From: a virus
IMG/VR virus record: IMGVR_UViG_3300030098_004108
Coordinates: 1-24,450 of that record
Length of the DNA stretch: 24,450 nt
Direction: 5' to 3' (one strand)
Part shown: positions 4,799-24,450 of the stretch, in pieces
How positions within the stretch are numbered: position 1 is the stretch's first letter
Layout: the number at the start of each line of letters is the position of its first letter
The notes under the pieces: generated by a model
The model's input: the letters and a program-made list of their open reading frames with translations, nothing else
What the model was told of the DNA's origin: nothing
Databases searched by the model: none
Position numbers and translations under genes: made by a program

Positions 4799-6859
4799 CT
4801 ATTCAGTTCCTCCTGATTCAAATGTATTTGATTGTCTTGCAGATGGGGAAATCCATGATGCTCCCCTTGTGTTACTCCTATTATATACACTTATTGGAGT
4901 ATCAGGAGTATCCTCAATCCACATACTAAATAATGCAACAGCATTATTTATATCATAATGGTAAAACTCCCTATTAGACCTCCCTGTGTCAGGGTATTCT
5001 ACCATTAAACTACTCTGAAATTCCTCATAATCAGTATTTAACTGCTCAACTATCCCAACAATCTGAGGAGCAGAATCAAAACTTTGATAACTCTTAACAT
5101 TAGCAGATTGATTGTAATCTCCATTATTTGAGGATAAATCAAAGGTTGCTCCATTATTATAGACCTTTGCAATATTACTACTATCTAATTTAGTATCCCA
5201 AATACAGACCTCATCAATTTTGCATTGACCATAGTAATCAAACTCACAATAAGGGAAGGCTTTAGTAACTGTATCTTCATTAGGTGGTGTATAGTCAAAC
5301 TCCCAAAAGCCTAATAAATAACCTGTAGTTACTTGCTTATTTACATCCTGATTTATATTATCAGGAAAATGAGATGCAGTTATTGATTCATTAAAAAGAA
5401 CTTCCCCATTAACATATATTACAATAGATTGTCCTGCCATGTCAAAAGTAACTATCCAATGATTCCATTCATTAGGGTTGTATCCTGTAATGATATTTTC
5501 TATTGTGTCTGTGCTATAATAAGCATCACTTTCCTCAGGTGAATCACCACCAGTAATAAGCCTTAACTTTCCATCATTACTAAATCCTATAGATAAAAAA
5601 TTATTATAAGCATCATCACCTGTTAAATCGCATCCATTATAACCATGAATAACACCTGCTCCTTCATCAAATACCTCAGGCAATCCATAACTTAATAATG
5701 TTGTTCCACTTGATGGATTTTTTAACCAAGCTGAAAAAGTCCAATCATCTGCTAAATAATCTGAATCATCAGTTATTTTAGGGACAACCCCATATGTTTG
5801 CATTTGACAATGTGTGTTGACATAATCAGGCTCAGGGGATGGTGTTTCTGCTGTTCTAACATCATTTAACTTAGCTGAACTTAACATTACATTTCCTGCT
5901 GTATCCCTAGCTGTTATCCATATATCATAAAGAGTATCTTGTGTCAATCCATCAAAAGTTAAAGAGACAATTTCATTCCCATCAATCCCTGTAACATTAT
6001 CAGCACTAGCTATAGTAACAGAACCATAGTCATCCTGATTTATTACCTGAGCAGGTGTAGGTGCTCCTGCATTGTAAGGAACACACAATCCAAATATATC
6101 ACCTGACTCATTAATTCTAGTGCTTACTATTATATGAGTTTCAGCAGGTTCATTCTCCATCCAAATTGAAAAACCATTATCAGGGACAAACTCAGGAGGA
6201 GTTGTATCAGCAGGAGGGTCAGGTGCATCCTCTGATAAAGTAGCTCCTGTTATTTGAGAATAAACTACTGAGGACTCATTAGGAGTATGTTCATCATCCT
6301 CAAATGTTAAATATAAATCATAAGATGTTCCTGTTGATAATCCTGTAAATAGTATAAAATTCTCTCCCTGACCCATTGGAATATTTAATCTTTTAAATCC
6401 TGCTCCAAGTGTTGTTCCACTAGCATCTTGACCTGCTCTAATTTGAGTAGTAGTAGGTTCATCTGCACCATCAGACAATAAAACACAATCATATTGACCT
6501 GCCTCATTAGGAGTAAATTTATATTTCAAGGCTGTAGTGGTTACCCCCTCATCTACTACAGATAATCCTGAGTTCATTACAGGAGGATAGGTGTCCTCAC
6601 CTGATACTCCATTCCATTGTTGGATTCCACCTGCAATAGTATTACCATTAAAATATCTTTTCATTCTATCATTTAAAGATAATATCTGACCATTCTCCTC
6701 AGTTCCTGCTGTTCCAAATTCATTGAATAAAGCATCATTTAAAGAGCCTTTATTATTAGCCCATGCACTATTTAAATAATCTTTCATCTGACCATTCAAG
6801 TCATTCCCTCCTGATGTATCATGGTCAAATCCTTGTTTTAGCTTGTCATTTACTGACAT
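4799..6859 (-). CDS. LamG / FnIII-type virion fibre or decoration protein
   Basis: A 686-residue protein with several domains. Residues 1-75 hold about four units of roughly 20 residues sharing LND(x)Phi(xx)(Y/F) (VNDKLKQGF, LNGQMKDYL, LNDALFNEF, LNDRMKRYF). Residues 95-190 and 225-335 are two FnIII-like beta-sandwiches with the ending LSTGTSYDLYLTFED / LTQDTLYDIWITARD. Residues about 345-575 are a LamG/concanavalin-like domain (DDWTFSAWLKNPSSGTTLLS, NEWNHWIVTFD, IVIYVNGEVLF, KIDEVCIWDTKLD), a fold that often binds glycans. A helical C-terminus follows. It sits directly after the major capsid gene, so it may be a head fibre or decoration, or a tail fibre. Start ATG has AAGGAG 6 bases upstream. 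Confidence 0.8.
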   Translation of the reverse strand: MSVNDKLKQGFDHDTSGGNDLNGQMKDYLNSAWANNKGSLNDALFNEFGTAGTEENGQILSLNDRMKRYFNGNTIAGGIQQWNGVSGEDTYPPVMNSGLSVVDEGVTTTALKYKFTPNEAGQYDCVLLSDGADEPTTTQIRAGQDASGTTLGAGFKRLNIPMGQGENFILFTGLSTGTSYDLYLTFEDDEHTPNESSVVYSQITGATLSEDAPDPPADTTPPEFVPDNGFSIWMENEPAETHIIVSTRINESGDIFGLCVPYNAGAPTPAQVINQDDYGSVTIASADNVTGIDGNEIVSLTFDGLTQDTLYDIWITARDTAGNVMLSSAKLNDVRTAETPSPEPDYVNTHCQMQTYGVVPKITDDSDYLADDWTFSAWLKNPSSGTTLLSYGLPEVFDEGAGVIHGYNGCDLTGDDAYNNFLSIGFSNDGKLRLITGGDSPEESDAYYSTDTIENIITGYNPNEWNHWIVTFDMAGQSIVIYVNGEVLFNESITASHFPDNINQDVNKQVTTGYLLGFWEFDYTPPNEDTVTKAFPYCEFDYYGQCKIDEVCIWDTKLDSSNIAKVYNNGATFDLSSNNGDYNQSANVKSYQSFDSAPQIVGIVEQLNTDYEEFQSSLMVEYPDTGRSNREFYHYDINNAVALFSMWIEDTPDTPISVYNRSNTRGASWISPSARQSNTFESGGTE

Positions 6860-9211: not shown

Positions 9212-9984
9212 ACCTGAACACCTCTAGCAGTTACAGGATTAAATGATGGCTTTTTATCTATAAATTTCTTAGCTTTTTTATCATCTAATTTGACCTGACT
9301 TGTAACCATAGTCCATCTATGCCTACAATTAAATCCACCCCCATCTGTAAATGTTGATGGATAAGCACTATCTATCTCAGCCTTAGTCATCTCTCCTGCA
9401 CCTACCATATCTAAACATATATCCCTAGTCCTCTCATCCACTACTCCCTGATAATAATACTTAGTATCCTCAGGCATAGATTCAGCCATTAATTCAGTAA
9501 CCTGCCTAGAATAGCTGTTTAATGATGTATTAGCTAAGGTCTTGGCTTGGTCTGACCTTAGAACACCCCCAAATCCTTCCAAAATGCCCTGTTTTAGCTC
9601 GTTTTCTGTAGCCCCTGCTATAACACCCCTAGCAAGTTGTTGTTTGAGTGTATTCGCTAAATTCTTAGACTCACCTAAAAAGTATGATTTATCTATATTT
9701 ACTAAAGCCTGTAATGATTCCTCAGTTACTGCACCAAATCCATTTAGATTTTCTAAGACTTTAGTATATACTCCTGAGAGTTTTTCTATATCTCCTGATA
9801 GATTTAAATCATTTAATATAAAGCTCTCTATATCTATACCATCTAAAACTCTGATGATTTCCCCCTTAGTATATCCCTGATTTTTTAAATCTAATACCTG
9901 ATTAACTAAAGCTAATTGAACTCTCTCAATAGCAGAGGCAAACTGATTTGATGCTCCATCTATTATATTATCTAATTTACTCAA
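9208..9984 (-). CDS. MuF-like minor head protein
   Basis: A 258-residue protein of the Mu gpF / SPP1 gp7 type, a minor head protein that interacts with the portal. The diagnostic C-terminal part runs from VVDERTRDICLDMVGAG (about 181-197) to TFTDGGGFNCRHRWTMV (about 211-227): the DxRTRxxC and CRHR(W) motifs with Cys190, Cys220 and His222. The N-terminal two thirds are helical and lack recognisable features. The start is TTG, with AGGA 7 bases upstream inside the portal gene end; the first codons overlap the portal stop. The stop couples to the next gene. Two of the rare CpGs of the window are here. Confidence 0.85.
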   Translation of the reverse strand: MSKLDNIIDGASNQFASAIERVQLALVNQVLDLKNQGYTKGEIIRVLDGIDIESFILNDLNLSGDIEKLSGVYTKVLENLNGFGAVTEESLQALVNIDKSYFLGESKNLANTLKQQLARGVIAGATENELKQGILEGFGGVLRSDQAKTLANTSLNSYSRQVTELMAESMPEDTKYYYQGVVDERTRDICLDMVGAGEMTKAEIDSAYPSTFTDGGGFNCRHRWTMVTSQVKLDDKKAKKFIDKKPSFNPVTARGVQV

Positions 9985-12498: not shown

Positions 12499-12827
12499 CA
12501 ATTAGATTCAATGCCCTCAATATCAAGGACTTTAATTGGTTCAATCTCTTGGGTTTGGACTCTTTCAATAGCTTTCCCCTCTGTTCTATCTGCTATAAAT
12601 TGGACTGCCCATGCTTTCCCTTCTATAGCATATTTAAATACTCTCCTTAATACTACATCTAACTTAGTATGCTCACCATCTGATGTCCCTGATTCTTCCC
12701 CAATCTTTTTCAATATATCAGGAATAGATAATGTCCCCTTAGGTCTGCCCTTCCCTACAGATGCAGTATTCCCTGCAACAAATTGACCTTTGCTATTCCG
12801 ATTAGCTCCGTTTTTATTCGGATTCAT
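12498..12827 (-). CDS. terminase small subunit (DUF5681-like N-terminus)
   Basis: A 109-residue basic protein. The N-terminus has the SKGQFVAGNTASVGKGRPKG pattern seen in DUF5681 and many small terminase subunits; the middle is helical (LDVVLRRVFKYAIEGKAWAV) and would form the ring, and the C-terminus is acidic (EIEPIKVLDIEGIES). Its partner is the large terminase directly downstream, with which it overlaps by one base. It would bind the packaging site and load DNA. The gene begins inside the end of the methyltransferase gene (14-base overlap). Its first codons contain three CpGs exactly 10 bases apart, including CCG and CGG codons that are nearly absent elsewhere. Confidence 0.85.
   Translation of the reverse strand: MNPNKNGANRNSKGQFVAGNTASVGKGRPKGTLSIPDILKKIGEESGTSDGEHTKLDVVLRRVFKYAIEGKAWAVQFIADRTEGKAIERVQTQEIEPIKVLDIEGIESN
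12794..12824. repeat. 21-bp-spaced near-direct repeat with three phased CpGs (candidate packaging site)
   Basis: TATTCCGATT and TATTCGGATT differ at one base and start 21 bases apart, two helical turns. Their CpGs plus one between them lie at 12799, 12809 and 12819, exactly 10 bases apart. The middle CpG is in a CTCCG context. They cover the first codons of the small terminase gene. In many phages the packaging recognition site lies in or beside this gene. Recognition by terminase is inference. Confidence 0.35.
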
Positions 12828-13899
12828 ATAATTCTGCCTTCTTTCCTGTAAATTCTTCCCATCTCTTAACTATTACATCACAATAATGAGGGTCTAATTC
12901 CATACCATAACACTTTCTATTAGTCTTTTCACAAGCTATTAATGTTGAGCCTGAACCAAGAAATGGGTCTAATACTATTTTAGAATCAATTTTTTTTAAT
13001 ACCCATAGAAACAAATCAACAGGCTTTTGAGTTGGATGGAATCTATTTTTCTTTTCTGATGCTTGTTTATATTTCCTAACAACACCTTTTAAATTACTCC
13101 AAGCTAATTCACAATCCATTTGGTCACTTCCACCATTATTCTTATCCCAAACAAACCAAGATGCTGAATCAGGTAATACAGATGAATAATAATTAGCACC
13201 AAACCAAACCTGTGGAATATTTTTATTTAATATTTTATAAGATTCTTTTGCAACATTATTGTCATTATCATTTTTAATATCTTTATACTTATCTTTTAAA
13301 ACCCCTGAATTTTTTACAGCATCCATTCCATAGGGAGGGTCAGTAACAATAGAGCTATAATCATTAGGCAATTTATCCATATCTTTTAATACATCACCAC
13401 ATAACAATCTATGCTCACCCAATATCCATAAATCACCTAATTTAGTAACTGCTTCTTCTACCTCAGGGATTTCATCATCATCAATATTCCCCTCTTTATC
13501 TTCATCAGGTGCAAAGCCTACTAATTCATCATCACTAAATCCCCAATCAACTAAGTCCTCAGAATCAAAATTATTAGCTAAAGTATCATAATCCCATTCT
13601 CCTGTGTTCTTATTAAGCCTAATATTTAGCTCTCTCTCTTGGTCATAAGTAAGATTTACCTCTACACATGGGATTTTATTTATTCCTAAGTCTTTAGATA
13701 TTCTTAACCTTTGATGTCCTCCCACTAGGATATTCTTCCTGTCCTTATGGGTATTAACAATTAAAGGGTCAACTAAACCAAACCTCTTAACTGAATCTTT
13801 TAATTGAGAGTATTGGTCTTTAGTGAGCTGTCTAGGATTGTATTCAGCTACAATTAGCTCATCAGATGGATAATATTTTGTCTGTATTTTTTTATTCAT
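12814..13899 (-). CDS. ParB-fused DNA methyltransferase (class beta, N6-adenine or N4-cytosine)
   Basis: A 361-residue two-domain protein. Residues about 10-115 are a ParB/Srx nuclease-like domain (VDPLIVNT, then LVGGHQRLRISKDLG with GGHQR at 60-64). Residues about 150-355 are a DNA methyltransferase with catalytic TDPPYG at 186-191 and the SAM-binding DPFLGSGST at 311-319. This order (catalytic motif before SAM motif) is class beta, which methylates the amino group of adenine or cytosine. The HPTQKPVDLF motif at about 288-297 is typical. Such fusions are frequent in phages next to terminase genes, and may protect phage DNA or regulate it. There is no evident Shine-Dalgarno; a 12-bp palindrome lies just upstream. 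Confidence 0.9.
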   Translation of the reverse strand: MNKKIQTKYYPSDELIVAEYNPRQLTKDQYSQLKDSVKRFGLVDPLIVNTHKDRKNILVGGHQRLRISKDLGINKIPCVEVNLTYDQERELNIRLNKNTGEWDYDTLANNFDSEDLVDWGFSDDELVGFAPDEDKEGNIDDDEIPEVEEAVTKLGDLWILGEHRLLCGDVLKDMDKLPNDYSSIVTDPPYGMDAVKNSGVLKDKYKDIKNDNDNNVAKESYKILNKNIPQVWFGANYYSSVLPDSASWFVWDKNNGGSDQMDCELAWSNLKGVVRKYKQASEKKNRFHPTQKPVDLFLWVLKKIDSKIVLDPFLGSGSTLIACEKTNRKCYGMELDPHYCDVIVKRWEEFTGKKAELYESE

Positions 13900-15253: not shown

Positions 15254-15552
15254 AATCTCCTCTCTAGTCTATAAGTTGGTAAAGTCCCTCTATCATAAAA
15301 ATCATAACTATTCCTGATAGTTTTAGAATTAGAGTAGTTATTAGGTTTTTTTTGCCAAGTTTTCTCACAATTACAACAATATTGAGGAGACCTAGACTGC
15401 TCCCTCTCTTTATTTAATATATCTATATTAGGAGAAGAAAATTCAGAAGGATACCACCACCCATTTACAGGGTCTGTTTTCCTTTCACCCACTTTCCTAA
15501 TATCTTCTTTATATCTTCCTGACTTGCTTGATTTTTTTCTGATTTTATCCAT
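15229..15552 (-). CDS. small zinc-binding protein, 107 aa
   Basis: A 107-residue basic protein with two Cys pairs, YCCNC (Cys59, Cys60, Cys62) and RLCPLC (Cys101, Cys104), separated by about 40 residues, which would hold one zinc ion. The N-terminus is strongly basic (DKIRKKSSKSGRYKEDIRKV). Short proteins of this kind are common beside replication initiators in phage genomes and may bind nucleic acid. Its ATG start lies 88 bases inside the initiator gene, an unusually long overlap for this window, so the true start may lie further on; no better ribosome site was seen. Confidence 0.6.
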   Translation of the reverse strand: MDKIRKKSSKSGRYKEDIRKVGERKTDPVNGWWYPSEFSSPNIDILNKEREQSRSPQYCCNCEKTWQKKPNNYSNSKTIRNSYDFYDRGTLPTYRLERRLCPLCSTI

Positions 15553-16259
15553 TCTGCCTGTAGTCTCCTATTCTCTTTTTTTTCATTTATCTCTCTAATA
15601 TCTTCAGGAGTTAATTGAGGTGCTTTGACCTTTATATCATCTAGCCATCTCTCCTGATTCAGGAATGTAGTAGGATGGGGAATATAAGCACCACCATCAC
15701 TATTCCAACTATCAGACTTAATATACCTATCTAAGCCTGAAATAATCTCATTAAATTTGCTTTCAAGTTTTTTTGATTTCCAAATTTGTTGAGCTTTTTT
15801 CTTAGATTTTTTATTAGGATATTTCAACCAAAATATATCAAAATTGGGTATGCTTTTTATATTCTTACTATTCTTACCTTTATTGTATGTGGTTGCTGAG
15901 TGGTTGCTGAGTGGTTGTTTAATGGTTGAGGTATCCTGAAAGTCCTTGTAATTACAGATAGTTAGGTGTGTTAGATTAGTGGTTAGATTTTTATCAATCA
16001 TTTTTAACTTTTGTAGCATATTTAAAAATGTTCTAACCTTTTGCCTACTCCATCCCCATCTACTTTCAAAGTATTTAATTGACCTTAAAACCTGACCTCT
16101 TTTACAGGTATAGACATCCCCTTTAATTAAAACCTCAGCATCTTTATGATTAGCTAATAATAATAAATCTATCCAAGCTCTAGCTCTGTCATAAGGCTTA
16201 GTATCCCATAAGGGATTATCCTGAATAGACCTATAAAGTTTAATAAAACCATTATTCAT
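15465..16259 (-). CDS. replication initiator / replisome organiser (wHTH, DnaD/O type)
   Basis: A 264-residue protein with the build of phage replisome organisers. The start NNGFIKLYRSIQDNPLWDTK and a winged helix-turn-helix at about residues 20-105 (GQVLRSIKYFESRWGWSRQK) match initiator N-domains. A low-complexity linker (about 110-135) follows, then a C-terminal part with FWLKYPNKKSKKKAQQIWKS and YIPHPTTFLNQERWLDD (about 192-208), a motif typical of phage replication proteins that load helicase. The linker is encoded by four 11-bp DNA repeats, so the gene probably contains the origin, as lambda O does. ATG start has AGGAG 6 bases upstream. No helicase, loader or polymerase gene is in the window, so host enzymes are probably used. 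Confidence 0.8.
   Translation of the reverse strand: MNNGFIKLYRSIQDNPLWDTKPYDRARAWIDLLLLANHKDAEVLIKGDVYTCKRGQVLRSIKYFESRWGWSRQKVRTFLNMLQKLKMIDKNLTTNLTHLTICNYKDFQDTSTIKQPLSNHSATTYNKGKNSKNIKSIPNFDIFWLKYPNKKSKKKAQQIWKSKKLESKFNEIISGLDRYIKSDSWNSDGGAYIPHPTTFLNQERWLDDIKVKAPQLTPEDIREINEKKENRRLQAEWIKSEKNQASQEDIKKILGKWVKGKQTL
15889..15932. repeat. four 11-bp iterons inside the initiator gene: candidate replication origin
   Basis: Four adjacent 11-base units: GTGGTTGCTGA, the same again, GTGGTTGTTTA and ATGGTTGAGGT, all sharing TGGTTG in phase (one helical turn). They encode the linker between the initiator's DNA-binding and C-terminal parts. On the downstream side lies an A+T-rich stretch (about 15850-15888), as expected for an unwinding element. 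The lambda O gene has the same arrangement. That these are bound by this initiator is inferred. Confidence 0.5.
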
Positions 16260-16353: not shown

Positions 16354-16506
16354 TTAGTCTCTAATCCTTTGATATGCTTGAAGGACAGAGAACATCAATG
16401 CTAGGACAGATATAAGCATTGATTTTAGGTCATAAGTTGTTATCATTTGAATAATTGATAAAGTCATAAGACCTAATAATATAAGATATGATATGCTATT
16501 TATCAA
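16354..16506 (-). CDS. small two-TM membrane protein, 50 aa (TTG start)
   Basis: A 50-codon frame begins at a TTG overlapping the SSB-like gene's stop (TTGA), with AGGA about 9 bases upstream. The product has two hydrophobic helices (about 4-22, SISYLILLGLMTLSIIQMI, and about 29-43, SMLISVLALMFSVLQ) and a basic end AYQRIRD, the look of a tiny inner-membrane protein. It fills most of a gap of 243 bases between the SSB-like and initiator genes. Function unknown. Small hydrophobic early phage proteins can exclude superinfecting phages or modify the host membrane; that is only a possibility here. Confidence 0.5.
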   Translation of the reverse strand: MINSISYLILLGLMTLSIIQMITTYDLKSMLISVLALMFSVLQAYQRIRD

Positions 16507-16754
16507 AAGGGAATTTCCTCAGGTGTTAATTTTACATCCTGAGGCTCAGGCTCAACCCTAATATCATCTACAGGCTTAAATGATAGAGATAGATATTTCT
16601 TGCCATTCTGAGATGTATTTTTCCATCCTGAGATATAATACATATTCCCCTTAATCATACATTTTCCTGAATAGTTAGGATGCTTATCACTCTTAACATC
16701 CTCAGGATTTACAGGGAATAAAGTCCCTGAATTTTCTTTGTGTTCATAAGACAT
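16503..16754 (-). CDS. SSB-like protein with EEIPF tail
   Basis: An 83-residue protein. The core (KCMIKGNMYYISGWKNTSQN, then GKKYLSLSFKPVDD) resembles the DUF736-like fold, in which a W-K-x-T-S-x-x-G-x-x-Y-L-S motif is typical. The C-terminus ends VKLTPEEIPF, which closely resembles the acidic DDDIPF tip of bacterial single-stranded DNA-binding protein that recruits repair and replication partners. A likely role is binding ssDNA for the neighbouring ERF annealing protein. The ATG overlaps the ERF stop (TAATG), and the ERF gene's last codons (MEDF) carry the GGAGG site. No full OB-fold can be asserted from the sequence. Confidence 0.6.
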   Translation of the reverse strand: MSYEHKENSGTLFPVNPEDVKSDKHPNYSGKCMIKGNMYYISGWKNTSQNGKKYLSLSFKPVDDIRVEPEPQDVKLTPEEIPF

Positions 16755-17194
16755 TAAAAATCCTCCATTATTTGTTTTTTAAATTTCATTACTTTTTTCT
16801 TACCTAATGACATCTCATTTCCATCATCATCTTTTTGACCTAGTCCAAGCATAGCAGATAATAGATACCTCCTACCATAAGTCATAGCCTGACCCACAGA
16901 GTGAGGAGTTACTTTATCCTGTCTATCCTTAATAGGCATCATTATCTCTGATTTAAGATATTGACCTGATTTGTGCATTATTTTACAGGTAACTAAAAAC
17001 ACCCCATCTCTCCATTCTGACCCCTGAGATACAGATAAATCATATTTAGGCAGGACACCTAAGGCAACCTCTAAAACTGCCTTTAAATCTGCATAATCAG
17101 AGCCAAAATGAGGATTCTTAGAGTTTTTAATAACCCCATTTACTAATTCCTTCTGAGCCTTTGATAAGGCTGATGCTATTTCATTTAGTTCCAC
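16754..17194 (-). CDS. ERF-family ssDNA-annealing recombinase
   Basis: A 146-residue single-strand annealing protein of the ERF superfamily (P22 Erf type), used in phage recombination and in circularising the genome. Characteristic segments are NPHFGSDYADLKAVLEVALG near residues 27-46, a strand-rich centre (VFLVTCKIMHKSGQYLKSEI), and HSVGQAMTYGRRYLLSAMLG near 98-117. I set the start at GTG, which has AAGGAG 7-8 bases upstream; a longer frame from a TTG 16 codons earlier lacks a ribosome site and adds only a basic run. The protein is shorter than Erf (about 200), so the C-terminal partner-binding part is missing or carried by the SSB-like neighbour. Confidence 0.85.
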   Translation of the reverse strand: MELNEIASALSKAQKELVNGVIKNSKNPHFGSDYADLKAVLEVALGVLPKYDLSVSQGSEWRDGVFLVTCKIMHKSGQYLKSEIMMPIKDRQDKVTPHSVGQAMTYGRRYLLSAMLGLGQKDDDGNEMSLGKKKVMKFKKQIMEDF

Positions 17195-17294
17195 TCTTGT
17201 TCTCCTTCTTTTTCTTAAAAATTCTATCATATTCCTTAGCAAAATGTTTAGTCCATTTCACTCTCTGCTCACTACCTTTACCATTTAATCTCAT
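17181..17294 (-). CDS. small basic protein, 37 aa
   Basis: A 37-codon frame begins at an ATG overlapping the stop of the Cys-rich gene (ATGA) and ends 14 bases inside the ERF gene's GTG start. The product is very basic (starts MRLNGKGSEQRVKWTKHFAK, ends KKKKENKSGTK), so it may bind nucleic acid. The end of the frame carries the AAGGAG site used by ERF. It is supported by coupling at both ends and by the lack of any other frame in this stretch. Function unknown. Confidence 0.55.
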   Translation of the reverse strand: MRLNGKGSEQRVKWTKHFAKEYDRIFKKKKENKSGTK

Positions 17295-18440: not shown

Positions 18441-18718
18441 TATTTACCTCCTCTGATATACATTTTTTCCCCATCAAATTTAGCTCCAAATGATTTAAAA
18501 TCTTTTTTATCAGGATGAGTTATTAACATATTAAGACATTTATCAAAAAACCAACTTAATGATAACAATATCTTAGACTCAATTTCTAATCTAGATAATC
18601 TATTAGGATTGTGAAAACTAGCCTCCCTAACATTGTTCCTAGCTTGGATTTGAGCATCAGTTATTATCCATAACTGCTCACTCATTTTAATCATTTTATT
18701 TATTTGAATTTTAGTCAT
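18440..18718 (-). CDS. hypothetical helical early protein, 92 aa
   Basis: A 92-residue, mostly helical protein (starts MTKIQINKMIKMSEQLWIIT, has SRLEIESKILLSLSWFFDKC in the middle and ends KMYIRGGK). It is well charged, with an amphipathic centre, and may form a small helical bundle. The ATG overlaps the upstream stop (TAATG), preceded by the AAAGGAG formed by that gene's KGAK codons. The same pattern links it to the next gene. Function unknown. Confidence 0.65.
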   Translation of the reverse strand: MTKIQINKMIKMSEQLWIITDAQIQARNNVREASFHNPNRLSRLEIESKILLSLSWFFDKCLNMLITHPDKKDFKSFGAKFDGEKMYIRGGK

Positions 18719-18948
18719 TATTTTGCTCCTTTGTTAATATAATTATATAAAACTTTTTTAGCCTCTTTAAGTGTTGAACAAGTATCTACAACCATCCAAT
18801 TATGAGGAGTGTCCCATTCCGTTTCTTCTGTTTCATATACCACCCAATATCTACCAAAATAATCATATAATTGATAGTAAGTATCATTCAATTTATAATC
18901 ATATCGACCTGCTACTTTTGATGTTGCTATATCTTTTAATTTAATCAT
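18718..18948 (-). CDS. first early gene, hypothetical protein, 76 aa
   Basis: The first gene after the promoter-bearing gap. I chose the ATG of MIKLKDIATSKVAGRYDYKL because GAAGGAG lies 6-8 bases before it; a TTG 16 codons upstream lacks a comparable site. The product is aromatic (YYQLYDYFGRYWVVYETEE) and strand-rich, ending in NYINKGAK, whose codons form the next gene's ribosome site. The leader has two further copies of a GGAGCAA-type motif. Function unknown; the position suggests the earliest expressed gene. Confidence 0.6.
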   Translation of the reverse strand: MIKLKDIATSKVAGRYDYKLNDTYYQLYDYFGRYWVVYETEETEWDTPHNWMVVDTCSTLKEAKKVLYNYINKGAK

Positions 18949-18987
18949 GTTTGCTCCTTCGTTTATTTTAATACTTGTTGCTCCTAT

Positions 18988-19016
18988 AAAATACAAAGGA
19001 TAAAACTTCTATGCAA
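18988..19016 (-). promoter_or_regulatory. candidate sigma70-type early promoter
   Basis: On the minus strand TTGCAT and TATTTT are separated by 17 bases, close to a sigma70 promoter, and would start transcription shortly before the leader of the first early gene. It is in the longest non-coding gap of the window (18949-19243). A strong TATAAT lies further upstream (19103-19108) but has no good -35 partner. Confidence 0.4.
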
Positions 19017-21552: not shown

Positions 21553-23951
21553 TAATTGTTTTTAGTAATATTTATTAATTTAATCTTCATTTTCCCTAAT
21601 TGTTTACTGACCTGAACTACTATCCAATTTTTAAAATTTAAATTGTCAGAAAATGCTTTAGTATATTCAGAGGAATCAAAGTCCACCATGTCTCCACATT
21701 GTAAATTATAAAATTTAGGATTTACGATAGTCATATCTAAAATCTCTCTAGGTCTGTCAGTTATAGAGGCATAATAGTTTAAAAATCCCACATTCCTATT
21801 CCCTATATCTGCTATATCTCCATCAGATTCTATAAAAAGTCCTAATCCTAATTTACCTGTAAATCCATCATATTCAGCAGTTGGGATAGATTGATTAAGA
21901 GTGTCTAGTTTTACATTTTTAACATTTTCTTTAGTTAATCCATATCCAAAAGCACTCCTCTGCTCCGTATTTGCTTCTATTTTTTCTAAATATTCATTAT
22001 TTTTTGCAGGATGCCTAAAATATTCAACAATCCATTTAGTGATAATATTATCTGTAAGAGTAATATTAAAATCAGAATAATCAGCATCTGATAATGTTGC
22101 TGATATATCATCTTCATCATAACTATTTTTTATAAATATATATTTAGGAGTATTATTCTCATAGGTAAATATAAAGCCTCCCTCATATTGATACTGCTCT
22201 AACTTTTCCTTTAAAGATACAGGCTCATTTATCCAATCCCTTATATGCCAAAGTGTTCTATTAGTATGTAAATTATCAAAATTTGGAGGGTCTGATGTCC
22301 CTATATCAGTAAATCTATAAAGTAATTCTCTATGTGCTTGTGGGATATTATAAATTGCATCTCCTTCTGAGCCTGTGTAAGTTTTATTCATACCATCAAC
22401 TCCACTATATAAAAATTCAGGAGGTTGCTCTGTATAAGTAACAGGCATTCCATCACCTGTATTCTCCCATGATAATCCATACTCATACAAAGCATATATA
22501 TCATAAATTTTAATCTTTGCTGTTGTAGTTCCATTATCAGCAACTCTAACTCTAACTATAAACTCTATATCAGTAGCACCTATAAAAGTGTTAAATCCAC
22601 TAAATCCAATCCCACCATCTAAATCAGTTGAGCCATCAGGGATAGTTAGCGTAACATCATAGCCACCTCCTGCAAAATTAAAATAAACATAAGAATTAGT
22701 ATCCCCATTATTAGAGCAATCAAATATTTGATATTTAAAAACAATTCTAACTTTCCAATCACTAATAGTCCCATCCTGAATCATTACAGGAGTGCCATCA
22801 GGACTATTAAATTTTAATTGCCATTTAGAATAATGGTTTTCAGACACTATAGTAGCAGTTTCTGAAAAAGTTGCTAAGGCAAAAGTTGAATTGTCTCCAT
22901 CAATAGCATTACTTAAAGGATTATCACCATCAAAATCAAAATTATTATCATCATCTGTATGAGTTCTAACAACTGACTCAGGTCTAATTGCAAAGCCTCG
23001 CCTGATTCCTCTTGTAGTTAAAAATGCTTTAGCTCCATCATGGTCTGATGTTTCAGTATCATGCCACTCATTCCCTGCCTGAGCAGTTGAAACACCTGAA
23101 CTCCTTGACAGATTAGATAAAGGCATAAAAACATCATTAGAATTATCATAATATTCTAAAGGGATTTGCATAGTGTTATCTCCTGAGTCCGTAAAGTCAT
23201 AAGCCTGTTCCCCTATTAAATATGCTACTCTATTATAGCTGTGAATATTTCCATAGGCTTCAACAGAATAATCTGATGATGGTAATACTTGACTATATGG
23301 GACAGGTCTTAATTTTTTATTATCCATTTCCTTGATAAATGTTGCTGTTATAGGTAAAAAATTCTCATATTCAGGTTTAAAATATGAGTTATCACTTGAT
23401 TTAAATTGACCAAAAGACAGAGGGACATAATTTTTCCCTGATGTAGTTTTTTTAGCACCTACCTCAATTCCATCCCATATATTTTTAGATGTAGCATTTA
23501 AAGTAATAGAATTTATATTATGAGATATAGATTTAATAGTTCCTGTAAATAACAATAAACAATCAGATAAAGCACTCATATTATTAAGCTGAGAATATAC
23601 TAAAATTTTTCTACCAAAATAATGGTTATTACTATCATCAGCATCTAAAGAATATAAAATATCAGATAATTGTTTATCAGTAACAGAACCACTCTCTCTA
23701 TATTTATAATTTATCATTTGGATAGATATATTAGATGTTTTAGCCTTAGATTCAAAAATATCTATTGAGTTCCTGATTGATGGAGTATTACTAACAACCC
23801 CTTTATATTTAACACCATCTATAGTAGTGTCAAACATAGATACAGCAGTAAAATTAGTTTCATCTCCATAATATAAATGAAATATCCAATTTTCATTAAT
23901 ATTTTTTAAGTCTAATGCTTTTTCATAATTAGCAGGTAAGGTTAAAGCCAT
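21552..23951 (-). CDS. large tail hub / baseplate-type protein, 799 aa
   Basis: A 799-residue soluble protein directly after the tape measure gene. The N-terminal quarter (NISIQMINYKYRESGSVTDK, ILVYSQLNNMSALSDCLLLF, TGTIKSISHNINSITLNATS) has the repeated strand pattern of siphophage hub proteins around the tail tip. The middle (about 300-500) carries a beta-sandwich insertion with jelly-roll-like strands, which may bind carbohydrate. The end (about 660-799) has TPTAEYDGFTGKLGLG-like strands and a final MVDFDSSEYTKAF segment like hub or fibre-attachment domains. The exact family is not recognised. The ATG overlaps the tape measure stop (TAATG). Confidence 0.65.
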   Translation of the reverse strand: MALTLPANYEKALDLKNINENWIFHLYYGDETNFTAVSMFDTTIDGVKYKGVVSNTPSIRNSIDIFESKAKTSNISIQMINYKYRESGSVTDKQLSDILYSLDADDSNNHYFGRKILVYSQLNNMSALSDCLLLFTGTIKSISHNINSITLNATSKNIWDGIEVGAKKTTSGKNYVPLSFGQFKSSDNSYFKPEYENFLPITATFIKEMDNKKLRPVPYSQVLPSSDYSVEAYGNIHSYNRVAYLIGEQAYDFTDSGDNTMQIPLEYYDNSNDVFMPLSNLSRSSGVSTAQAGNEWHDTETSDHDGAKAFLTTRGIRRGFAIRPESVVRTHTDDDNNFDFDGDNPLSNAIDGDNSTFALATFSETATIVSENHYSKWQLKFNSPDGTPVMIQDGTISDWKVRIVFKYQIFDCSNNGDTNSYVYFNFAGGGYDVTLTIPDGSTDLDGGIGFSGFNTFIGATDIEFIVRVRVADNGTTTAKIKIYDIYALYEYGLSWENTGDGMPVTYTEQPPEFLYSGVDGMNKTYTGSEGDAIYNIPQAHRELLYRFTDIGTSDPPNFDNLHTNRTLWHIRDWINEPVSLKEKLEQYQYEGGFIFTYENNTPKYIFIKNSYDEDDISATLSDADYSDFNITLTDNIITKWIVEYFRHPAKNNEYLEKIEANTEQRSAFGYGLTKENVKNVKLDTLNQSIPTAEYDGFTGKLGLGLFIESDGDIADIGNRNVGFLNYYASITDRPREILDMTIVNPKFYNLQCGDMVDFDSSEYTKAFSDNLNFKNWIVVQVSKQLGKMKIKLINITKNN

Positions 23952-24450
23952 TAAGCGAGTCCCAATCTTCTAGCATTATTAATCTCAGGAATTACTACAT
24001 CCCTTATAAAATCAGCATTAGTTACAGGAGCATTAAAATGTAGATTAATTCCACCTTCTGCTGTCCCCCCTCCACCTAATGGAGTGATATTAACTGATTC
24101 TGCACCATTCTCACCTGCTATAATCATAGTAGGCTCAGTTACCACCTCATTCATTCCCTGCTCAGCAAATTTCACACTCTTTAATCCTGCCTTTAACCCT
24201 TCCAAAGCTATTATCCCTGCTATAGCTGACCCTATCCCCATAGGGGTAAATGTTAAAGTCATAGCCTTTGATACAACTTTACTAGCCATTAAAACACCCT
24301 GAAATGAATCTAAAATCCCAATTAAAAAATCTCTAAATTTATCTCCACCTGTTTTAGATGGGTCAAATAAAGTAGATAAAGAGCTTTTTAATAAATTAGC
24401 TGAGTTGAAAGTCTGCTCTAATTTCTCAGTAACTACATCATTACTTTCTT
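23951..24450 (-). CDS. tape measure protein, C-terminal end (5' end beyond window)
   Basis: The open frame enters from the right edge with no stop for 166 codons, so the ATG at 24289 is internal and not the start. The visible part has an amphipathic helix, a hydrophobic Ala/Gly segment (GIGSAIAGIIALEGLKAGLK), and an ending typical of tape measure proteins: NEVVTEPTMIIAGENGAES, then ITPLGGGGTAEGGINLHFN and FIRDVVIPEINNARRLGLA. This protein sets tail length and acts in DNA ejection. Its full length is unknown here. Confidence 0.85.
   Translation of the reverse strand, partial: ESNDVVTEKLEQTFNSANLLKSSLSTLFDPSKTGGDKFRDFLIGILDSFQGVLMASKVVSKAMTLTFTPMGIGSAIAGIIALEGLKAGLKSVKFAEQGMNEVVTEPTMIIAGENGAESVNITPLGGGGTAEGGINLHFNAPVTNADFIRDVVIPEINNARRLGLA

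Follow-up and report, generated by a model that had tools for sequence, protein, structure and literature searches.

A probable replication origin of the SPP1 oriL kind in the linker codons of a phage initiator gene

The segment 15796-15932 of the window, the whole 24,450-bp stretch of viral DNA analysed here, is in all probability (about 0.9) a theta-type replication origin that sits within the phage's own initiator gene, in the codons for the linker, in the manner of oriL and gp38 of phage SPP1. It joins an array of 11-bp iterons to an A+T-rich element presumed to unwind. Judged on its sequence, the window fits each testable defining feature of the oriL/gp38 type, and embedded origins of that type are a kind already known. 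An earlier note on this DNA had predicted an origin inside the initiator gene from a resemblance to phage lambda; sequence comparison now lends that prediction the support of a direct homologue, SPP1 gp38, rather than of an analogy.

Initiator gene and its neighbourhood

The window is a linear and incomplete virus record. Its initiator gene (15465..16259, minus strand) encodes a protein of 264 residues of the SPP1 gp38 / DnaD-like helicase-loader type, which in profile searches matches the replication initiation protein PHROG_270 (E 1.2e-24) and the DnaD-like helicase loader PHROG_2514 (E 2.9e-24). Its N domain is 42.1% identical to SPP1 gp38 over residues 4-108 (tblastn, E = 2e-17). Residues 1-109 (15933..16259, minus strand), the presumed iteron binder, are modelled by AlphaFold with pLDDT mostly between 80 and 95 and in the helix/strand order of a winged helix. 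Foldseek with this model returned nothing at E < 0.001 and weak matches to winged-helix regulators, and a search of solved structures and profiles also gave weak matches to such regulators; the winged-helix assignment follows from the strand/helix order of the model together with these matches.

Residues 110-135, between the N-terminal domain and the helical C-terminal domain, have pLDDT below 50, which bears out the claim that the repeats encode the linker of the initiator. The first half of this disordered linker is coded by the repeats and the second half by the A+T-rich element. The C-terminal domain (15465..15854, minus strand), with AlphaFold helices after residue 136, is presumed to recruit the helicase or its loader, and a primosomal protein profile, PHROG_9327, covers residues 111-211. 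Pfam and NCBIfam searches found no DnaD C-terminal domain (PF07261/TIGR01446) in the initiator, and Pfam no Phage_rep_O (lambda O-type) match up to E 0.1.

Two genes upstream, in the same direction as the initiator gene, code for a single-strand DNA binding protein (16503..16754, minus strand; PHROG_7364, E 1.3e-10) and an ERF-type single-strand annealing protein (16754..17242, minus strand; PF04404, E 5.3e-18), which places the initiator in a replication/recombination module. Among the window proteins tested, from an incomplete record, there is neither a DnaC-type loader nor a DnaB helicase. The GC skew runs monotonically with no switch, since almost every gene has the same orientation.

Elsewhere in the window, positions 12814-13899 encode a 361-residue protein in which a ParB N-terminal domain (PF02195) is fused to an N6/N4 DNA methyltransferase (PF01555), and a tandem repeat at 18921-18982 (27-bp unit, 2.3 copies) partly covers the 5' region of an ORF (18718-18996). 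The left end (1-782) falls inside a gene resembling that of a tail-tube protein and the right end (23951-24450) inside one resembling a tape measure. Such genes usually lie side by side; the genome may be circularly permuted in this record, with part of the tape-measure region missing.

Iteron array and unwinding element

The array (15889..15932, minus strand) consists of four 11-bp units with the core AACCA on the coding strand, TGGTT on the plus strand, and codes for part of the disordered linker. The extent 15889-15932, given in the earlier note, proved right: Tandem Repeats Finder reports period 11 with 3.6 copies and 89% matches at 15889-15928, a repeat search finds 18-nt copies at 15889, 15900 and 15911, and TGGTTG is present four times. 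The minus-strand cores at 15890-15894, 15901-15905, 15912-15916 and 15923-15927 are spaced by exactly 11 bp, and nowhere else on the record's coding strand do two AACCA words lie 5-30 bp from each other; read along the gene, the four cores occupy coding positions 333, 344, 355 and 366. An isolated fifth core, a possible weak site, is found in the wing codons at coding position 276 (15980..15984, minus strand). It is contained in a 12-bp near-repeat at 15963-15986, AATCTAACCACT AATCTAACACAC, which is identical in the nearest relative.

Compared with itself at lag 11, the array agrees at 27/33 positions, the highest value for this lag anywhere in the window. When the gene is shuffled among synonymous codons, which preserves both protein sequence and codon usage, no more than 1 shuffle in 5000 attains it (p = 2e-4). 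Translation reads the four cores in frames 2, 1, 0 and 2, so that the encoded peptide, TSTIKQPLSNHSATTY, does not repeat. The term 'in-phase', applied to these units in the earlier note, is therefore correct for the DNA helix, given the exact 11-bp spacing, and incorrect for the codons. The repeats belong to the DNA and not to the protein, and selection acts on the DNA rather than on the peptide.

The A+T-rich flank described earlier is real and lies on the low-coordinate side of the array, where A+T reaches 78% at 15835-15888 compared with 67% in the whole record. The least stable 80-bp stretch of the gene (15796..15876, no strand assigned), which nearest-neighbour calculation places in the weakest 1.7% of the record, is the presumed DNA unwinding element. 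It overlaps the motif ACATACAATAAAGGTAAGAATAGTAAGAATATAAA (15856..15890, minus strand), the window version of ACAAACAABAATGWNAAKAATGWNAAKAAT. The window copy of this motif, ACATACAATAAAGGTAAGAATAGTAAGAAT, scores 23.6 bits, compared with at best 21.1 in 20 synonymous shuffles, and reads in frame as TYNKGKNSKN. Inside it are two exact 9-bp repeats, GTAAGAATA (TATTCTTAC on the plus strand), at 15860..15877 on the minus strand (Tandem Repeats Finder, period 9, 100%).

Homology to SPP1 gp38 identifies the array as the likely binding site of the initiator. The N-terminal winged-helix domain would bind the AACCA units and, since these lie 11 bp apart, or about one helical turn, the bound copies would stack on one face of the DNA. 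Stacked in this way, the initiator would open the adjoining A+T-rich DNA and the 9-bp repeats in it. Recruitment of the replicative helicase, or of its loader, would then fall to the C-terminal domain, and the origin would fire at 15796-15932.

Comparison with known systems

In SPP1, gp38 is reported to have nanomolar affinity for the direct repeats of both origins, oriL and oriR; oriL lies inside gene 38 and its A+T-rich part is the unwinding element, after which the helicase is loaded, while oriR is intergenic, in the late region (PMC6316719). In the SPP1 sequence, taken from its IMG/VR copy, gene 38 carries GACACGAAAAAGACACGAAAAAGACACAG followed by ATAAACAACAATGATAACAATG, the latter belonging to the same motif family as the element of the window. 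The two systems thus share a homologous N domain, an origin within the initiator gene, direct repeats of roughly 11 bp that code for the linker, and an adjoining A+T-rich element. They differ in the repeat word, GACAC-AGAAAA in SPP1 and AACCA in the window. The iterons and element of SPP1 recur as GACAGCAAAAGAGACACAGAAAAGACACAGAACAATATAAACAACAATGATAAACAATG near 4880-4950, where stops interrupt all three forward frames. This non-coding copy probably corresponds to oriR, as it lies where that origin has been described (PMC6316719), a match by description and not by compared coordinates. No second, oriR-like array or motif is present in the window, itself an incomplete record, and no homologue of the helicase loader gp39 or the helicase gp40 was found among the window proteins tested. 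oriR is a feature of SPP1 and not an established requirement of the oriL/gp38 type.

The SPP1 comparison also bears on the best-placed alternative, that the array is an operator through which the initiator or a repressor controls transcription of the replication genes, with the origin elsewhere. Binding within a gene could block transcription, and iteron arrays of plasmids often autoregulate. Operators are, however, expected near promoters and not 330 nt into a gene, the conserved weak-duplex element alongside fits unwinding, and in SPP1 the same pair of features is described as the origins themselves (PMC6316719). An operator without an origin is accordingly unlikely, and a double role, as operator and origin, is possible.

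A further relative of the embedded origin has been described in Staphylococcus phage 80alpha, whose ORF20 is a reported gp38 homologue; supplying the gene in trans does not make good its loss, and the origin is accordingly believed to lie within it (PMC5499656). The likeness to the window is one of description, and 80alpha encodes an adjacent DnaC-like loader, whereas none was seen in the window.

The resemblance to lambda is of another nature. In O and ori-lambda the initiator binds iterons beside an A+T-rich stretch, in the part of its gene that codes for the linker, as is predicted for the window. Lambda has four iterons of 18 bp, compared with the 11-bp unit of the window, and the window protein has no Phage_rep_O match. 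Lambda O has also been called unrelated to the gp38-type initiator (PMC5499656). The window origin is not of the lambda O family, and the parallel drawn in the earlier note holds for an analogue but not for kin.

Finally, a PHROG label as DnaD-like relates the window protein to Bacillus subtilis DnaD and the DnaD Recognition Element of oriC (PMC10201434). In both systems, presumably so in the window, an A+T-rich origin strand carrying sequence information is presented to a helicase-loading protein. The window differs in lacking a DnaD match in Pfam or NCBIfam and in having a 9-bp repeat as its element. A reading of the unwinding element as a DnaD-type single-strand site (motif TnnT) serves as a lead only, since TnnT arises easily in T-rich DNA.

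Conservation in the nearest relative and across the family

The initiator of the nearest relative (L002) is 72% identical in amino acids to that of the window, and its gene has all five AACCA cores at the same coding positions. Within the 45-bp array the two genes agree at 20/20 core bases but at 18/25 spacer bases (p = 0.011), and the array peptide differs (STIKQPLSNHSATTYN in the window, VTNKKPQSNQSATTYN in L002). At shared residues within 86-130, a region picked after looking, codons are identical in 34/36 cases as against 91/139 elsewhere (p = 2e-4). Taken by itself, the L002 array is too degenerate for significance in the test for 10-12 bp repeats.

Homologues were drawn from phage records, viral contigs, and bacterial and archaeal genome contigs. 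The database scans were seeded with two subsets of a 14-sequence alignment, the whole alignment being too divergent, and the set was reduced to 167 sequences at N-domain identity below 85%, of which 166 were usable. Autocorrelation of the linker DNA exceeds that of synonymous shuffles at lag 11 (0.375 vs 0.322, t = 13.9) and at lag 22 (0.368 vs 0.320, t = 12.6), the t-values and the other family statistics being descriptive, as related genes are treated as independent. The lag-11 peak is absent from the N and C domains of these homologues. Significant 10-12 bp linker repeats occur in 141/166 homologues, 112/166 also beating synonymous shuffles, and 25/166 have no significant repeats of this kind. 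The best lag is 11 in 99, 12 in 61 and 10 in 6. The arrays start at a median of 34 nt past the anchor tyrosine at the wing end, and their words are specific to lineages, for example AAGCAGAGGGC, AAAAGCCACAG, CCCACCGACAA and AACGAAACGCA. The persistence of the repeats where the protein linker differs, a point raised by the earlier note, holds for most of the 166 homologues as well as for L002. Among the 61/166 homologues with a best lag of 12, many arrays are of 12-bp or mixed 11/12-bp units (GGTACAGCAGAA / GGACAGCAGAA).

Behind the conserved N domain the C-terminal domains vary widely: apart from the window protein itself, just 17 non-redundant homologues have one that matches its own. The DNA of the linker might then serve mainly as a recombination joint for swaps of C-terminal domains between phages. 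Such a joint, however, predicts neither an 11-bp period nor a lineage-specific word nor a conserved weak-duplex element, and as the main function it is very unlikely; an origin placed between two domains may also be used as a joint, as a by-product.

A second element follows just downstream of the iterons in the family: ACAAACAA-BAATG, that is ACAAACAABAATG, and then 9-bp repeats AAKAATGWN. The DNA behind the iterons is A+T-rich (+0.11 over the gene mean, 90-120 nt past the wing). ACAAACAABAA is found in 66/166 linkers, compared with a mean of 8.9 and a maximum of 16 in shuffles, and outside linkers only once in 79 kb of remaining gene sequence. It is read in three frames, yielding TNKNDKN-like (52), HKQECKE-like (6) and QTIMNNN-like (8) peptides. 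Codon choice was assessed in elements defined by their peptide, a test free of the partial circularity of counts based on the EM motif. Asn1 is AAC in 67/81 cases (44% elsewhere), Asn3 is AAT in 77/81 (56% elsewhere) and Lys2 is AAG in 39/40 (35% elsewhere); the use of AAG in place of AAA indicates that the element is more than merely A+T-rich. By its codons, the second element is conserved as DNA.

These family data weigh heavily against the idea that the array is a by-product of a low-complexity disordered linker, with selection on the peptide alone. The stretch does code for a disordered linker, and such linkers are often repetitive. Yet 11 bp is no multiple of a codon and the cores fall in three frames; the repeats exceed synonymous shuffles; the downstream element yields three unrelated peptides, TNKNDKN, HKQECKE and QTIMNNN; and SPP1 has the same layout in a non-coding stretch. 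Linker peptides of the 11-bp class, moreover, show a self-identity of 0.188 at 11 residues and at most 0.142 at the other lags tested, and 11 residues equal 33 bp, or three units, as expected if the peptide is driven by an 11-bp DNA unit that is read in three frames. Peptide-only selection is in consequence most improbable. The same can be said of a recent, neutral and functionless tandem duplication by slippage, which could account for two units being identical but not for four cores that stay in place in L002 although the spacers have diverged, nor for the 10-12 bp arrays with other words at the same place in most homologues.

Search with the element alone

Viral contigs were also scanned at the DNA level with ACACAAACAAKAATGRWAAKAATG, which returned 110 stretches, 80 of them readable. 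In 79/80 the element sits at a gp38-type initiator. In 75/80 the element lies in a frame that the N-domain model of the initiator recognises, three further sites are initiators cut by the stretch end, judged by their linker peptides, and one belongs to a recoded phage (L293); a single site (L296) is unrelated. Directly upstream of the element, 10-12 bp repeats are present in 76/80 sites, with a best lag of 11 in 69 and of 12 in 10.

One initiator homologue from this material (L293, positions 724-1138; IMGVR_UViG_3300002059_000031) has five in-frame TGA codons and the same origin layout with 12-bp units. Its YQ-TGA-KGT aligns with YQG, and TGA is probably read there as glycine, as in recoded phages of the Absconditabacteria/Gracilibacteria kind. 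The gene had been considered as a broken initiator with an intact origin, which would be proof of selection at the DNA level; this was rejected, as recoding explains the TGA codons better.

A candidate origin code of the family

Beyond the window, the data lean towards an origin code common to DnaD-like/gp38-type phage initiator genes in many bacterial phyla, a reading held with moderate confidence. It would comprise helically phased iterons of 11 or 12 bp, with a word particular to each lineage, and an unwinding element that is shared and specific in sequence, ACAAACAABAATG(WNAAKAATG)n, and that is kept as DNA in whichever of the three frames it falls. The variable winged-helix domain would recognise the iteron word, and a conserved partner the element; perhaps this partner is the initiator or the helicase-loading machinery, acting on single-stranded DNA. 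The open literature searched yielded no account of either the shared unwinding element or a family-wide 11-bp rule; both may be undescribed, and an earlier description is possible.

The two-part layout provides a rule for locating replication origins from sequence in a large group of phages, mostly uncultured. It is also a case of DNA overriding protein, one DNA element giving three different peptides across lineages. The shared element raises the questions of what reads it and whether it determines where, or on which strand, the helicase is loaded. Recognition rules for the initiators could further be derived by pairing winged-helix sequences with predicted iteron words.

Two individual homologues deserve mention. 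In one (L274, minus strand, near 9952), the gene changes frame precisely at its origin. The frame of the N domain meets a stop within the unwinding element and a different frame encodes the C-terminal part, which may reflect a natural split or a sequencing error. The record of another, named 'Pseudomonas phage PSV3' (L029, OP712483.1), matches Staphylococcus phage PVL (L028) gene for gene in layout and positions, and may be a contaminant contig or mislabelled.
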